A DNA stretch of 39,031 bases, from contig JAUHWP010000016.1 in the NCBI GenBank assembly GCA_030424645.1, positions 1 through 39,031 of the forward strand, given 5' to 3'. Below the pieces are notes generated by a model, which was not told the DNA's origin, ran no database searches, and saw only the letters and a list, made by a program, of their open reading frames with translations. The first letter of the stretch is position 1; each line of letters starts with the position of its first letter. Of the stretch, positions 10,207-16,820 are shown in pieces. The translations under genes and the position numbers were made by a program. Source of the DNA: Alphaproteobacteria bacterium (GTDB taxonomy: Bacteria; Pseudomonadota; Alphaproteobacteria; Rhodobacterales; Rhodobacteraceae).

Positions 10207-10715
10207 TCGATTTCTTCCAGTTGAATTTTCCTGGCCTGCCCGGTGCCCTTGCCCAGCACGACCAGAACCAACAGGATCAGGCAGATCAGCAACGACAGCC
10301 AACCCAGCGCGGACATGGCATAGGCAATGGGTGCAAGCGGAAGTCCGAGCGAGCCGGACACCGCCTCGGAGCTGTGCAACACCGAAGCCTGTGCGGTCAT
10401 GCGCCAGGCGATCAGCCCCAGGGCCAACGCCGAAAACAGCAGGACCATTGCCCGATGTGCGTTGCGAAACCTTTGAGGAATCCGGGTTGTGAACAGGTCG
10501 ATTGTCAGGTGGCCTTCGGCCCGGGTGGCAAGCGGTAGCGCGGCAAAGACGGCCAGCGCCATGAGATATTGCACGATTTCATAGCCGCCGGGTAACGGGG
10601 CGCCGAACAGATAGCGCCCCGCCACGTCAATCGCGGTGATCGACGCCATCGCCAGAAGGAAGGTTGCCATGAAGGCTTCAAGAACCTTCTCGGCTATGGC
10701 CCATAGACGATCCAT
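10203..10715 (-). CDS. dctQ: TRAP transporter small permease (DctQ family)
   Basis: This 170-residue protein has four predicted membrane helices. It has the DctQ pattern of FLLAMASITAIDVAGRYLFGAPLPGGYEI near residues 18-48, where RY.F..P..G..E is typical, followed by ALPLATRAEGHLTIDLF. The small permease joins DctM to form the membrane part of the transporter. It starts three bases after the end of the dctP pseudogene and overlaps dctM by four bases. No damage is visible. Confidence 0.92.
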   Translation of the reverse strand: MDRLWAIAEKVLEAFMATFLLAMASITAIDVAGRYLFGAPLPGGYEIVQYLMALAVFAALPLATRAEGHLTIDLFTTRIPQRFRNAHRAMVLLFSALALGLIAWRMTAQASVLHSSEAVSGSLGLPLAPIAYAMSALGWLSLLICLILLVLVVLGKGTGQARKIQLEEIE

Positions 10716-10718
10716 GGA

Positions 10719-11738
10719 TCACTCTCCGGCCAGAAGGCGCAACTGCTCTTCATAGAAGGCCAGCGCAGCGGCGCCATCTATGCCTGCGGCATCGGCATTT
10801 TCGACCCACTGGGCGCGAAGCGGCTCCCATGCAGCGCCTGCGTCGGCGTCGAATGCGTCAGACGCGTCAAGGACCTGACCGCCAGCGTCGATAAAGCGTT
10901 GGCGGGCCTCGCCATAAGCCTCGTCAATGCCGGCTGCAAGATGGGCCATGGTCTCGCCCGAGGCTTGCATGATCGCGTTCTGGTCTTCAGGCGAAATCGT
11001 TCCCCATGCGTCCTCGCGGATGAAGAAGGCGAAGGTCGGCGCGAAAAGCCCGCCGGGGATCTAGGTCGCCGATGTCATGAACTGCGTGACCTTGAACGCT
11101 TCAAGCGCCGGATAGTTGACGCGGCAGAAGGCGTCAACGACACCGCCCGAGATGACTTCATACATTCGAACCGCCGGTCCGGGTGTGACCACGGCGCCAA
11201 GTGCGGTAAGGGCCTGAGATAAAACGCCCGGCAATCCCTAGGTCTTGAGGTTGGACGTGTCGTCCACGCTTTCGATCGGCGTGTCGCCCATCGTATAAAG
11301 GTGGCCCGGCGTAACGGCGACAAGGCCCAGAAGCTTCACATCATTCAGCTTGTCGGTGCCTGCGAAATGCTCCTGATACGTGCGCCAGAGCGCGACCGAG
11401 CTGTCTTCGGCATTCGTGTTGATGCCCGGCAGCAGCGACAGTTGCAGCAGCGGGTTCGAGTTTTCCAGGAATCCAACCATGATGAAACCGGCGTCGGCGA
11501 TCCCTTGCTGAACCGTGTTCAGCAACTCGGGCGGTGGGGCCAGCGATGCGGATGGCTGTTCAATCGTTACCCGGCCGTCGGTGACGGCTTCGATGCTTTC
11601 CAGCCACGGCTGCACAACGGTCCGGTTGGTCACGTCTGGCGGTGGCAGAAAGTTGTTGAACAGAACGGTGGTGTCCGCCGAGGCAGCCAGCGGCGTGCTC
11701 ATGAAAGAGGTAAGGATCAGGGCGCGCAGAGATTTCAT
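10719..11738 (-). pseudogene. dctP: TRAP solute-binding protein gene (dctP) interrupted by two in-frame TAG codons
   Basis: The frame from ATG 11738 to the TGA at 10719-10721 spans 340 codons, the usual length for a DctP. It is free of frameshifts but has TAG at codon 167 (11238-11240) and at codon 226 (11061-11063). The start follows GGGAGGAAA. The first 23 residues form a signal peptide ending in AASA before DTTVLFNNFLPP. The solute-binding fold continues across both stops: GALGAVVTPG-like sequence, MYEVISGGVVDAFCRVNYPA, then IPGGLFAPTFAFFIREDAWGTISPEDQ. A cell using TAG as a normal stop would make only a 166-residue, non-binding fragment. TAG ends other genes here (6187-6189, 12970-12972), so it is not reassigned. 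The DctQ and DctM partners are intact. Sequencing error, recent inactivation or suppression could explain it. Confidence 0.85.
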
Positions 11739-11810
11739 CATTTTCCTCCCGACGATTGTGGCGAGACGCAGTTGATGAGATTTGCGCTCAACAGTGAATA
11801 CGTTAATAGT

Positions 11811-11820
11811 TAACATGTTA
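11811..11820. promoter_or_regulatory. Palindromic operator candidate between dctP and the GMC gene
   Basis: TAACATGTTA is a perfect 10-bp palindrome in the divergent region between the TRAP operon and the GMC oxidoreductase fragment. On the minus strand it lies just downstream of a TTGACT (11829-11824) that could be the -35 box of the dctP promoter. The same 10 bases occur in the hpaR-hpaF control region at 14887-14896, so both sites may bind the same MarR-type repressor. Confidence 0.55.
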
Positions 11821-11862
11821 TGCAGTCAAGTTTGGATATTCAGCTCGGAAGGGGAACAGACA

Positions 11863-12972
11863 TTGGCGGATTACGATATCATCGTCGCGGGTGGGGGATC
11901 GGCGGGCTGTGTTCTTGCGGCCGAACTGAGCGCGGATCCGAAGCTGAAGGTGCTGTTGATCGAAGCAGGCCGGCGTGACACCAACCCCTGGATCCACATC
12001 CCTGCAACCTTCTTCAAGGTCATGCGGGGCGGCCGGGACGCAATCGTATATGAAGGCGAGCCGGAAACAGGTTTGGGTGGTCGTCCATTCCTTGTGCCGC
12101 AGGGCTATGTCCTTGGTGGCGGATCCTCGGTCAATGCGATGCTGTATATACGCGGTCAGTCTGAGGATTATGAAGCGTGCGAAGCAGCGGGTGCAGCCGG
12201 TTGGGGCTGGCGCGATGTTCTTCCTGTGTTCAAGCGGCTGGAGGCGAATCGCAATTTCGGAGAGCCGTTTCACGGGCGCGACGGCCCGCTTGCGGTGTCC
12301 GACCCGCGCCACCGTCATCCACTGAGCAAGGCCTTCCTGGCAGCGTGTAACGAGGCGCAACTGCGCTTGAACCCCGACTTCAACGGCGAACGGCAGGACG
12401 GTGTCGGGTTCTATCAGACCACCACGAACAAGGGGCGGCGATGGTCGTCGGCGCGGGCGTTTCTGCGCCCGGCCTTGAAGCGCGGAAACCTTACCGTGAT
12501 GACCCAGGCGCTGGTTGACCGTGTCCTGATCGAAAACGGTCGCGCAACCGGTGTTCGTCTGGTTGATGGCCGCGAGATCACGACACGGCGCGAGGTTGTC
12601 CTGACCGCCGGGGCGCTGGCCTCTCCGCTGATCCTGATGCGCTCGGGCCCGGGGGCAGGGGACAAGCTTGATGCGTTGGGCATTCCCGTCCTGCGGCCGT
12701 CGGTTTCGCGTATCATGCGGGATCTTGAAAAGCGGGGCCTGGTGACACCTGCCAAAAGCACCGACCGGCGCCACAAGCCTTGGCGGATCACGCCTGCGGG
12801 TCGGGAAATCTTCGATGCCGTCGCCATCAAGGCCGAGGCGGTCTATCGCGAGATCGAGGCGGCTTATGGCAGTGAAGAGCTGCGCGATCTGGTCCAGAGG
12901 TTGAACCGGCTGGTCGATCTCTGTGAAGCACTGCCCGAAGATGTCGTTTCAGATCTTCTGGCCGAACAATAG
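11863..12972 (+). pseudogene. Chimeric ORF: GMC oxidoreductase N-terminal half joined in frame to a MarR C-terminal half
   Basis: The first 276 or so residues are a GMC-family flavoprotein. They include the FAD-binding DIIVAGGGSAGCVLAAEL, GMC signature 1 (GYVLGGGSSVNAMLYIRG, near residues 80-97) and signature 2 (GALASPLILMRSGPG). Just after GIPVLRP, near base 12695, the sequence changes to a MarR DNA-binding segment: SVSRIMRDLEKRGLVT, the wing DRRHKPWRITPAG, and the dimerisation helix. The GMC substrate domain with its catalytic histidine and the N-terminal half of the MarR protein are absent. The simplest reading is a deletion between a GMC gene and a downstream MarR gene that kept the frame. 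The TTG at 11863 was chosen as start because GGAAGGGG precedes it and the FAD motif begins there. The 369-residue product should be neither a working oxidoreductase nor a normal regulator. Confidence 0.85.
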
Positions 12973-13068
12973 GCCGACCGGTCTGGAAACTTTGTCCAAG
13001 GTTCGGTGCGTCACCGGCCGTTCACCGCAACCAGCTTGCGGAGGCGAGCGTATGATCTGGAGAACACA

Positions 13069-14292
13069 ATGCCCCGCCATGGCATGATGATTGATGGGCG
13101 TCGCGTCGATGTGGCTGCGACGTTCGATGTGACCGACCCGGCAACAGGCGACACCGTGGGATCGGTGGCCAATGCAACGCTGGGCGATCTGGATCGTGCC
13201 GTCGCCTGGGCCAGATACACCGCCGGTCTGGCGCTTCCGATGAAGGTCTTGCAGGACAATAACGAAGGCAGGATTGAAATGCACCGCAAGCCGTTGGGCG
13301 TTGTTGGGTCGATCACGCCTTGGAATTTTCCGGTGATGATCGCGGTCTGGCATATTCTGCCTGCCCTGCGCACCGGTAACACGGTGGTCATCAAGCCGTC
13401 GCCTTATACGCCCATCGCGACCGTGCGTCTGGTCGAGATCATGAACGAGGTGCTGCCCGCCGGGGTTGTCAACATCGTCACATCGGACGATCGAGAGGAC
13501 AATATCGGCGCGGCGATGTCATCGCATCCGGGGATCCGCAAGATGGTGTTCACGGGATCGACCGCGACCGGAAAGCGCGTGATGGCCGGGGCTGCGGAAA
13601 CCATGAAGCGCCTGACGCTTGAACTGGGTGGAAACGATGCGGGCATCGTGCTGCCGGATGTGGACCCAGACGAAATCGCCGAAGGATTGTTCTGGGGTGG
13701 TTTCAACAATAGCGGCCAGACCTGCGCGGCCATGAAGCGGCTTTATGTGCACGAAGATGTCTATGACGAGGTTTGCGAAGCCTTGGCAGCCTATGCGGCC
13801 ACCGTGCCGGTGGGCAACGGCGAAGACGAGGGGTCGGCGCTTGGCCCGATCAACAACCAGATGCAGTTCGATAAGGTCAAGCGTCTGGTCGATGACGCAA
13901 AAAGCACAGGGCGCGTCCTTTTGGGGGGTGCGCCGGGTGCGGGGCTTTTCTTTCCGCCAACCCCGATCGCGGACCTTTCCCCGGATGCCCTTTTGGTTCG
14001 TGAAGAGCAGTTCGGACCCGTCCTGCCGATCATCAGGTATTCTGATATCGATGAGGCCATCGCGCAGGCGAACAATTCGGAGAACGGGCTGGGTGGCTCG
14101 GTCTGGTCACGGGATGTCGAAAAGGCCAAGGCAGTCGGTGCGCGCCTGCAATGCGGGTCTGTCTGGATCAACAAACATGGCGCGATTCAGCCCAATATCC
14201 CCTTTGGTGGGGTCAAGTCTTCGGGCTTCGGGGTCGAGTTCGGCGAGGAAGGCCTGGCGGAATATACCGACATCCAGATCCTGTATTGCTGA
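13069..14292 (+). CDS. Aldehyde dehydrogenase with a large internal in-frame deletion
   Basis: This 407-residue NAD(P)-dependent aldehyde dehydrogenase retains TPWNFP (Asn86), ELGG (Glu185) and the catalytic GQTC (Cys219). The spacing from the N-terminal VTDPATG to WNFP is 64 residues. In the complete aldehyde dehydrogenase at 18703-20151 the same interval is about 126 residues. The missing block, near residue 46 where DLDRAVAWARYTAG reads as two joined pieces, normally holds helices of the cofactor domain, including the segment around EQGKPL. The protein is therefore probably inactive or unstable. ATG 13069 follows GGAG; an in-frame ATG at 13006 adds 21 non-family residues. It follows the GMC-MarR chimera by 96 bases. 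By context the intact form may have oxidised an aldehyde made by the GMC enzyme, possibly an arylacetaldehyde feeding the hpa pathway. Confidence 0.8.
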   Translation: MPRHGMMIDGRRVDVAATFDVTDPATGDTVGSVANATLGDLDRAVAWARYTAGLALPMKVLQDNNEGRIEMHRKPLGVVGSITPWNFPVMIAVWHILPALRTGNTVVIKPSPYTPIATVRLVEIMNEVLPAGVVNIVTSDDREDNIGAAMSSHPGIRKMVFTGSTATGKRVMAGAAETMKRLTLELGGNDAGIVLPDVDPDEIAEGLFWGGFNNSGQTCAAMKRLYVHEDVYDEVCEALAAYAATVPVGNGEDEGSALGPINNQMQFDKVKRLVDDAKSTGRVLLGGAPGAGLFFPPTPIADLSPDALLVREEQFGPVLPIIRYSDIDEAIAQANNSENGLGGSVWSRDVEKAKAVGARLQCGSVWINKHGAIQPNIPFGGVKSSGFGVEFGEEGLAEYTDIQILYC

Positions 14293-14350
14293 GGCGCAAC
14301 GATAACCCGAAACGCGTTCAGGCTGTGCGGGAGCCGGATCGGCGCATCGG

Positions 14351-14815
14351 TCAGTCGTTCGACTTGAGGACCTCGATCAGCGTGTCGATTTCGTTCAGCA
14401 GGGATTCGATCCGTTCGATCCCGACCTTGGCCTCGATCTCCTTGTAGATCGCGGCGCTTTCCGGGGCCAGTTCCTTGATAAAGGCCTGGCCCCCGGCGGA
14501 AAGCCGGATCATGGCCCGTCGCCCGTCGCTTGGGTTTTTCCGCACTTCGATCAGCGACTTGGCTTCCAGCGCCTTGATGATCCTGGACAGTGACGGGGCC
14601 AGCACACATGCCCCCGCAGCCAGATCGGTCGCATCCATCCCATCGCTTTCGCGCAGAACCCGCAGAACCCGCCATTGTTGTTCGGTCACGCCATGCGACA
14701 GCAGCATGGGGCGGAACCGTTCCATCAGGTGTTCGCGCGCGCGCAACAGCGCAATGGGAAGCGTGCGATGGGTATCAGAAAGCTCCGCGGTGCTCTTTTT
14801 CCTGGAATCCAGCAT
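14351..14815 (-). CDS. hpaR: MarR-family regulator of homoprotocatechuate degradation (HpaR-like)
   Basis: This 154-residue protein has the winged-helix MarR fold: ERFRPMLLSHGVTEQQWRVLRVLRE (helices 1-2), the recognition region LAPSLSRIIKALEAKSLI near residues 92-110, and the wing DGRRAMIRLSAGG. The opening stretch (LPIALLRAREHLMERFRPML) is typical of HpaR, which represses hpa genes until the aromatic acid binds. It is divergent from hpaF, with a 12-bp palindrome between them, fitting autoregulation and operon repression. The ATG at 14815 has a weak ribosome binding site. It is convergent with the aldehyde dehydrogenase gene, ending 59 bases from it. The MarR half of the chimera upstream is a paralogous regulator of similar type. 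Confidence 0.85.
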   Translation of the reverse strand: MLDSRKKSTAELSDTHRTLPIALLRAREHLMERFRPMLLSHGVTEQQWRVLRVLRESDGMDATDLAAGACVLAPSLSRIIKALEAKSLIEVRKNPSDGRRAMIRLSAGGQAFIKELAPESAAIYKEIEAKVGIERIESLLNEIDTLIEVLKSND

Positions 14816-14866
14816 AGGGGATCGGCCTCATTGGTTCGAAAAGCATTTTGCTTCACAGGTTAAGGA

Positions 14867-14897
14867 TTGACAAGATGAACTTAATTTAACATGTTAA
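14867..14897 (+). promoter_or_regulatory. hpa operon promoter with 12-bp palindromic operator
   Basis: A consensus -35 TTGACA is at 14867-14872. A poor -10 (CATGTT, 14890-14895) lies 17 bases further on, inside the perfect palindrome TTAACATGTTAA (14886-14897). An operator over the -10 box is a classic repressor arrangement for a MarR protein. A second short inverted repeat, AAGCA-TTT-TGCTT, lies at 14841-14853 nearer hpaR. The transcript leader to the TTG start at 14916 would be very short, so the exact promoter is less certain than the operator. Confidence 0.55.
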
Positions 14898-14915
14898 GCA
14901 AAAGGGAGGCGAATC

Positions 14916-15305
14916 TTGCCGCATCTGAGGATCGAATACTCACCGGGCCTTGCCGGGCGCGTGAACATGAAGGGGCTGTGTCGTGCCGCGCACCGCGCGA
15001 TGGTCGAGACCGGCATCTTCCCGCTGGCGGGCATTCGGGTGCGGGCCTTCTGTGCCGATCATTGCATTGTCGCGGACGATCACGCCGAAAACGACTTTGC
15101 CGCCTGCATCCTGACGGTCGGTGCAGGCCGCGCGACCGAGGCGCTTCAGCAAGTCGGCCAGCACATCTTCGCCGCGCTTCAGGACTTTCTGGCCGACCTG
15201 TTGGCCACACCGCATTTCGCCCTATCGCTGGATATCCGGGAGTCCGACCCGGCGCTCAGCTGGAAAGACACGCCGATCCATGCTCGGCTCACAAAAAAGG
15301 ACTGA
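14916..15305 (+). CDS. hpaF: 5-carboxymethyl-2-hydroxymuconate delta-isomerase
   Basis: This 129-residue member of the tautomerase superfamily isomerises 5-carboxymethyl-2-hydroxymuconate, the acid made by HpaE, in homoprotocatechuate meta-cleavage. After initiator removal the first residue is the catalytic Pro (PHLRIEYS). Family segments include VETGIFPLAGIRVRAF near residues 30-45 and a C-terminal FALSLDIRESDPALSWK. The start is TTG 14916 with AAAGGGAGG 6-7 bases before it. Starting anywhere else would lose the N-terminal proline, which decides the start. It is the first gene of the hpa operon, and hpaE begins four bases after its stop codon. Confidence 0.9.
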   Translation: MPHLRIEYSPGLAGRVNMKGLCRAAHRAMVETGIFPLAGIRVRAFCADHCIVADDHAENDFAACILTVGAGRATEALQQVGQHIFAALQDFLADLLATPHFALSLDIRESDPALSWKDTPIHARLTKKD

Positions 15306-15308
15306 GAC

Positions 15309-16820
15309 ATGAGTGTTCTCGACGACAACATCGCAAAGGCCCAACAGCATATGGCGGGGTTCCGTGACACCGGCGTGATGAACCACATTGCCGGGCAATC
15401 CGTTCCGGCGCTTTCGGGGCAGACTTTCGAAACCGTTTCGCCGGTGGACCTTTCGGTTCTGGCCAAGGTCGCGAAGGGCGCGGAAGCGGATATCGACGCG
15501 GCTGTGGCCGCCGCCAAAGAGGCCTTTCCGGCCTGGTCGAAAATGCCCGGCGCCGAGCGTCGCAAGGTCCTGATCAACGTGGCCGAGGCCATCGAGGCGC
15601 GTGCGGAAGAGATCGCCTTTACCGAGTGCATGGATACCGGGCAGGCCTTGCGTTTCATGTCCAAGGCCGCGATCCGCGGTGCGGCGAATTTCCGGTTCTT
15701 TGCCGACCAGGCGCCCCAGGCGGAAGACGGCGATGTCACGCGCACGCCCACGCAGATGAACACGACCTCGCGCCGTCCGATCGGGCCGGTGGGGGTGATC
15801 ACGCCCTGGAACACGCCCTTTATGCTGTCCACCTGGAAGATTGCCCCGGCGCTGGCGGCCGGTTGCACGGTGGTGCACAAACCCGCCGAGTTCAGCCCGA
15901 TGACCGCCAAGCTGCTGGTCGAGATCGCGGAAAGCGCGGGTCTGCCCAAGGGTGTGCTGAACGTGGTCAACGGCTTCGGTGAAGACGCGGGCAAGCGTCT
16001 GACCGAACACCCGGATATCAAGGCCATCGCCTTTGTCGGCGAAAGCCGCACCGGGTCGATGATCATGGCGCAGGGCGCCAAGACCCTGAAACGCGTGCAT
16101 TTCGAACTGGGCGGCAAAAACCCGGTCATTGTCTTTGACGATGCAGATATCGACCGCGCGGTCGATGCGGCCACGTTCATGATCTATTCGCTGAACGGTG
16201 AACGCTGCACGTCATCCTCGCGCCTGCTGGTGCAGGAGAGCATTTATGACGAGGTATGCGCCCGCGTTGCGGATGTGGCCAAACGCATCAAGGTCGGCCA
16301 TCCCTTGGACCCCGAGACCGTGGTGGGGCCGCTGATCCATCCCGAGCACGAAACCAAGGTCCTGTCCTATTTCGACAAGGCGCGCGCGCAAGGGGCGACC
16401 ATCGCGGCCGGCGGCAAGAAGATCGGCGAGGACGGCTGCTATGTCGCGCCGACGCTGTTCACGCAGGCGACGAACGACATGGCCGTGGCGCAAGAGGAAA
16501 TCTTCGGTCCGGTGCTGACCGCAATCCCCTTCAAGGATGAAGATGACGCGCTGCGCCTTGCCAATGACGTGCAATACGGTCTTGCAGCGTATCTCTGGAC
16601 CAACGACCTGAACCGCGCGATGCGCATGACCGACAATCTTGAAGCGGGGATGATGTGGGTCAACTCGGAAAACATCCGGCACCTGCCGACGCCGTTCGGA
16701 GGGGTCAAAGCCAGCGGCATTGGCCGCGACGGCGGGGACTGGTCCTTTGATTTCTACATGGAAACCGTGAATGTCAGCTTCCCGCGGGCATATCATAAGA
16801 TACCGAAACTTGGCGGCTGA
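15309..16820 (+). CDS. hpaE: 5-carboxymethyl-2-hydroxymuconate semialdehyde dehydrogenase
   Basis: This 503-residue NAD-dependent aldehyde dehydrogenase oxidises the ring-cleavage semialdehyde to 5-carboxymethyl-2-hydroxymuconate. Catalytic positions are intact: Asn168 in TPWNTP, Glu266 in FELGGK and Cys300 in NGERCTSSSRL. The ERCTSSSR form of the cysteine motif and the C-terminal VNSENIRHLPTPFGG are characteristic of HpaE. The length agrees with the family (about 490). It lies between hpaF and hpaD. Unlike the deleted aldehyde dehydrogenase upstream, this copy is complete. Confidence 0.93.
   Translation: MSVLDDNIAKAQQHMAGFRDTGVMNHIAGQSVPALSGQTFETVSPVDLSVLAKVAKGAEADIDAAVAAAKEAFPAWSKMPGAERRKVLINVAEAIEARAEEIAFTECMDTGQALRFMSKAAIRGAANFRFFADQAPQAEDGDVTRTPTQMNTTSRRPIGPVGVITPWNTPFMLSTWKIAPALAAGCTVVHKPAEFSPMTAKLLVEIAESAGLPKGVLNVVNGFGEDAGKRLTEHPDIKAIAFVGESRTGSMIMAQGAKTLKRVHFELGGKNPVIVFDDADIDRAVDAATFMIYSLNGERCTSSSRLLVQESIYDEVCARVADVAKRIKVGHPLDPETVVGPLIHPEHETKVLSYFDKARAQGATIAAGGKKIGEDGCYVAPTLFTQATNDMAVAQEEIFGPVLTAIPFKDEDDALRLANDVQYGLAAYLWTNDLNRAMRMTDNLEAGMMWVNSENIRHLPTPFGGVKASGIGRDGGDWSFDFYMETVNVSFPRAYHKIPKLGG

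Follow-up and report, generated by a model that had tools for sequence, protein, structure and literature searches.

The window analysed here, a stretch of 39,031 nt from contig JAUHWP010000016.1 of a member of the Rhodobacteraceae, carries the same palindrome in two divergent promoter regions of a locus for aromatic degradation. One copy lies between hpaR and hpaF, at the head of the hpa operon, and the other between a GMC oxidoreductase gene and dctP, the first gene of an operon for a tripartite ATP-independent periplasmic (TRAP) transporter and a sulfatase. The explanation that we favour, and consider probable, is that two paralogous HpaR-type repressors shared one type of operator, that the second repressor, here called MarR2, is dead in this genome, and that the dctP site is orphaned. 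The element itself is of an ordinary class, with a modest evolutionary twist.

The 10-mer TAACATGTTA occurs at 11811-11820 and 14887-14896 and has no further copy in the window, while 100 dinucleotide shuffles of the window contain none. In the whole genome (3,242,835 bases in 208 contigs) these are the only two exact copies, both in the aromatic locus, which bears out the recurrence pointed out in a preliminary description of this DNA. When the flanks are added, the second copy becomes the full 12-mer TTAACATGTTAA and the first becomes TTAACATGTTAT. A genome scan for TTAACATGTTAA with at most one mismatch returns three places: 14886, 11810 and contig position C132:35181. For three random sites in such a genome, the probability that two fall within 3087 bases is about 0.006. 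Both copies are intergenic and lie, as had been described, in divergent promoter regions, dctP(-)/GMC(+) and hpaR(-)/hpaF(+). Although a listed open reading frame (11782-12972) would span the first copy, homology to GMC oxidoreductases starts at a TTG near 11864, which places this copy, too, outside the gene.

The copy at 14886-14897 is best read as an ordinary HpaR operator, a known kind of element, because it has the exact form TTAA-N4-TTAA and is conserved upstream of hpaR. It adjoins an hpaR gene of the TIGR02337 family and the hpa operon, in which hpaF is followed on the plus strand by hpaE and two hpaD-type dioxygenase genes. An alignment of 12 hpaR/hpaF regions shows TTGAC and then the site at a nearly fixed distance in 11 of the 12, and the 34-bp spacing of a second, imperfect site is common to the window, Ruegeria marina (L034), L036 and L037. 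The second copy had also been placed over the candidate -10 of hpaF, but by eye no clear hpaF -10 can be discerned there. In Yersinia pseudotuberculosis, HpaR footprints at the hpaG1 promoter cover two TTAA-XXXX-TTAA sites, one of which overlaps the -10; these are reported to be as in Escherichia coli W (PMC7180172). As described there, the hpa-meta promoter of Y. pseudotuberculosis resembles that of the window in its TTAA-N4-TTAA form, its two sites, the position of hpaR beside the hpa genes and the presence of one site in the core promoter. It differs in spacing, with sites at about -189 and -8 as against 34 bp apart here (PMC7180172). In the window, moreover, hpaF is the first gene, the operon is of the marine alphaproteobacterial type, and the HpaR sites are predicted from sequence.

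Conservation was counted at hpaR loci that matched the HpaR protein or family, 107 in all from two collections (L004-L111 without L010), reduced to 104 by dropping three identical upstream regions. Loci fetched by the motif were excluded, and an earlier count (32 of 111 with at most one mismatch) was set aside because it included such loci as well as controls overlapping the motif. Within about 200-210 bp upstream of hpaR, TTAACATGTTAA is found exactly at 10 of the 104 loci and with at most one mismatch at 23, as against 3 and 7 among 1666 control windows taken at those loci. Some of these seven are hpa sites themselves; L009, for example, carries the hpaF site of G120. Three control palindromes are found upstream of hpaR at none of the 104 loci. 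Where HpaR identity is at least 50%, a site within one mismatch is present at 14 of 34 loci.

Across 290 genomes of the family, exact TTAACATGTTAA has 42 sites in 37 genomes, while the reversed control pattern has 17. Twenty-two of the 42 (in 20 genomes) lie no more than 200 bp from an HpaR match and five more lie directly upstream of hpaF or hpaE, which gives 27 at hpaR, hpaF or hpaE. Three belong to a sulfatase (G031), a distant TRAP dctP (G241) and a probable transporter operon (G114), and 11 to loci without a match to the window proteins used; the tally leaves out one site, G241:C10. Since the reversed control has 17 sites, a background about as large as these 11 unmatched sites is expected. 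Among the papers listed in a literature search there was no alphaproteobacterial HpaR operator, and none paired HpaR with RegPrecise; literature matches to the strings TTAACATGTTAA and TTAACATGTTA concerned, by title, human genes, sequencing contaminants and Brassica. The predicted sites supply an HpaR operator consensus for marine-type Alphaproteobacteria, usable to find aromatic-degradation regulons.

The other copy, 2.5 kb from hpaR and beside dctP, combines the half-sites TTAA and TTAT, one base off the HpaR consensus. The TTGACT that had been noticed near it is present on the minus strand (11829-11824) and is part of the dctP promoter. The dctP promoters of the window and of four relatives (G034, G178, G234 and G317) align, with ACTTGACT identical in all five, followed by four bases, the first site and then the second site, TTAACCYGTTAT in the relatives and degenerate in the window. 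The first site reads ATAACRYGTTAT in G034, G178 and G317, TGAACATGTTAT in G234 and ATAACATGTTAA in the window. Because the five promoters align, the copy at 11810-11821 belongs to what is conserved in the dctP promoter. The check proposed in advance, conservation upstream of orthologous hpaR/hpaF and dctP, therefore came out positive at both places, the palindrome being kept in relatives.

The relatives also show which regulator the dctP site faces. G034, G178 and G234 share the order sulfatase-dctM-dctQ-dctP with the window, and an HpaR-like gene, our MarR2, is divergent from their dctP. The same junction of dctP and MarR2 is present in G317, a member of the genus to which G178 belongs. The dctP site in these four thus faces the paralogue MarR2, not HpaR. 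Moreover, G034 has kept its dctP site while its hpaR/hpaF intergenic region has no such palindrome, which argues that MarR2 reads the dctP site in G034. These operons share with the window the gene order and a dctP promoter with an operator, but the window has a GMC fragment that separates the operator from what is left of MarR2, and its dctP and MarR2 are broken; MarR2 of G317 has an internal stop, too. Of the features that accompany the MarR2 operator in the relatives, the window has the first site and ACTTGACT, a degenerate second site, and no intact divergent MarR2 gene. By eye, the gene behind MarR2 in G034 (L148 9980-11737) and G317 (L188 from 1422) is amidohydrolase-like, and the window has no such gene.

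We also considered whether an AT-rich palindrome simply recurs by chance in intergenic DNA, which is indeed rich in A and T; at the base composition of the window, one genome should hold about 0.7 copies of the 10-mer. We nevertheless reject this explanation as exceedingly improbable, since both copies are conserved in orthologous promoters (dctP and hpaR/hpaF) with a fixed spacing to the -35, and since the frequencies upstream of hpaR and in the controls differ as they do (23/104 versus 7/1666).

What is left of MarR2 in the window is the rear part of a chimera, in which positions 54-129 of TIGR02337 (HpaR) match residues 303-377, behind the N-terminal half of a GMC oxidoreductase. The MarR2 part starts at the recognition-helix region (PSVSRIM), and both the front of the MarR2 domain and the rear half of the GMC protein are missing. 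This half is closest to the four MarR2 proteins of G034, G178, G234 and G317 (44-46% identity) and groups with them on a long branch with a support of 0.967; the value is from FastTree, the branch labels of IQ-TREE being unsafe to read after midpoint rooting. Given that the N-terminal part of the MarR domain is missing, the chimera is unlikely to be a repressor today. Two MarR-type proteins had been counted in this 3-kb stretch, and of these HpaR is indeed intact, but the second is just this C-terminal half, attached to a GMC protein that is itself truncated. The neighbouring genes have decayed as well. The aldehyde dehydrogenase lacks 61 residues relative to that of Gemmobacter fulvus, and DctP, with its two stops, is otherwise full-length (51% identity to G034 DctP over 340 residues); dctQ, dctM and the sulfatase gene behind dctP are open reading frames.

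The motif, its conservation, the order of the genes and their lesions are seen in the sequences; what we infer about binding, repression, the effector and the assignment of proteins to sites is the following. At 14886-14897 HpaR would cover the region beside the hpaF -35 and thereby repress both the hpa operon and its own divergent promoter, the weaker second site 34 bp away would assist it, and an aromatic effector would release it. Ancestrally, the site at 11810-11821, which falls between the -35 and the -10 of the dctP promoter, would have served MarR2, an HpaR-like paralogous repressor whose gene is divergent from the TRAP-sulfatase operon. With MarR2, the GMC gene, the aldehyde dehydrogenase gene and dctP broken, this site would have become an orphan, and among the candidate repressors of the locus HpaR alone is intact and could still use it. 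HpaR may possibly co-regulate both promoters. We can tentatively go one step further and suppose, though we rather doubt it, that HpaR inherited the orphan dctP operator after MarR2 died and that the remaining sulfatase and TRAP genes passed into the HpaR regulon, in which case the operator would have drifted from ATAACRYGTTAT towards the HpaR consensus (TTAACATGTTAT). If true, the locus would show, as a snapshot, one paralogue capturing the regulon of another; it provides a concrete and cheap test case for whether the operator of a dead repressor passes to its paralogue.

A different account, in which HpaR always controlled the hpa operon together with the TRAP, sulfatase and GMC genes as a single live regulon and still does so, seems to us unlikely. 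It would explain why the two copies have an identical core, the only two in the genome, and why the first is a single base from the HpaR consensus, and two further genomes fit it: G031 has an exact TTAACATGTTAA (L211:8022) 52 bp ahead of the start of a solitary sulfatase gene, 64% identical to that of the window, and a one-mismatch site upstream of its hpaR, while in G114 the second exact copy precedes the probable transporter operon, beside hpaR. However, a background of 17 control sites in 290 genomes could produce lone cases such as these, in four relatives it is MarR2 rather than HpaR that stands opposite the dctP site, G034 has the dctP site with no palindrome at its own hpaR/hpaF, and dctP of the window is interrupted by two stops. 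The preliminary description had read the palindrome as the control site of one regulon, possibly with cross-talk between two MarR repressors. The part of this that holds is a MarR/HpaR-type operator shared by both promoters and conserved in each; one working regulon with two repressors is borne out only in part, for MarR2 stands opposite the dctP site in the four relatives, and in the window MarR2 is half lost and dctP has two amber codons. Cross-talk between the paralogues, the second of them truncated, is more likely history than present physiology.

The hpa locus of R. marina, whose HpaR is the closest to that of the window (68%), has decayed differently. Like the window it has two HpaR sites 34 bp apart and, behind hpaR, remnants of the aldehyde dehydrogenase, MarR2 and the GMC protein, but the breakpoints are not those of the window: other deletions and frameshifts are present, and the GMC end and the front of MarR2 survive there. 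Taken together, the two decayed loci suggest the ancestral order dctP-operator-GMC-MarR2-aldehyde dehydrogenase-hpaR. An open reading frame beyond the GMC remnant of R. marina (L034 11683-12555) is transposase-like by eye.

Several observations weigh against two paralogous repressors with one operator type. No site within one mismatch is found in the 210 bp upstream of hpaR at 81 of the 104 loci, including 20 of the 34 with at least 50% HpaR identity, so the operator is not universal. Upstream of the 17 HpaR-like loci closest to MarR2 no TTAAC-type palindrome was seen, and the specificity of MarR2 is thus deduced from its own promoter alone. Orthology of the chimera half to MarR2 is moderate because the half is short and on a long branch. 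Finally, an intact dctP-GMC-MarR2-aldehyde dehydrogenase-hpaR arrangement was not found when the MarR2 half was searched for in 295 family genomes and full MarR2 in 394, nor in plasmids.

It is also conceivable, if very unlikely, that another resident regulator of the genus reads TTAACNNGTTAA and that both copies are partly its targets. Sites of this form are present in the promoter of a pyridoxal-phosphate decarboxylase gene at 9 of 20 loci of the genus, including that of the genome studied here. This genome carries another HpaR-like gene on contig C24 as well, and other members of the genus gave no long DNA match to positions 10700-15400 of the window. However, such a DNA search, which gave only short matches within the genus, leaves room for diverged hpa genes. 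Furthermore, the C24 gene showed no TTAAC-type palindrome upstream, the central dinucleotide varies freely at the decarboxylase sites, unlike at the hpa sites, and HpaR itself accounts for the conservation at hpaR/hpaF.

With regard to the substrate, the aldehyde dehydrogenase of the window resembles phenylacetaldehyde dehydrogenases, and its relative in Phaeobacter inhibens adjoins a gene annotated as tyramine oxidase. A plasmid of G. fulvus has genes for an aldehyde dehydrogenase, a GMC protein and an ATP-binding cassette transporter side by side with hpaR and hpaF. It is reasonable to suppose that the module once imported and desulfated an aromatic alcohol or amine derivative, which was oxidised to 4-hydroxyphenylacetate for the hpa pathway. 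The window would then hold a satellite uptake and oxidation module, probably feeding 4-hydroxyphenylacetate, in decay but with its control site still readable.

Table. Predicted control elements and genes at the two divergent promoter regions (window coordinates).
Feature	Position	Strand	Remarks
dctP pseudogene of TRAP transporter	10719..11738	-	in-frame TAG at 11240-11238 and 11063-11061
AATACGTTAA, degenerate second dctP operator (predicted)	11797..11806		TTAACCYGTTAT in four relatives
TTAACATGTTAT (minus strand ATAACATGTTAA), predicted operator inside dctP promoter	11810..11821		aligns with the sites of relatives
TTGACT, conserved -35-like hexamer of dctP	11824..11829	-	
Fused remnant: GMC oxidoreductase N-terminal half and C-terminal half of MarR2	11864..12972	+	start inferred from homology
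Aldehyde dehydrogenase, phenylacetaldehyde type	13069..14292	+	61-residue in-frame internal gap
hpaR, intact MarR-family repressor	14351..14815	-	TIGR02337, 154.0 bits (cut-off 121.2)
TTCACAGGTTAA, imperfect second operator (predicted)	14852..14863		34 bp from primary, hpaR side
TTGACA, conserved -35-like hexamer of hpaF	14867..14872	+	opposite strand TTGTCA can serve hpaR
TTAACATGTTAA, primary predicted HpaR operator	14886..14897		between hpaR and hpaF, directly 3' of hpaF -35
hpaF, 5-carboxymethyl-2-hydroxymuconate isomerase, first gene of hpa operon	14916..15305	+	PF02962

Two places elsewhere in the genome (G000) may be added. The third site of the one-mismatch scan, TTAACACGTTAA at C132:35181-35192 (L152:7182-7193), lies directly upstream of the pyridoxal-phosphate decarboxylase gene (PF00282). 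The second HpaR-family gene, at C24:795-1618 (L151), scores 126.8 bits, over the cut-off, and an hpaF-like gene (34% identity) lies directly upstream of it on the same strand.

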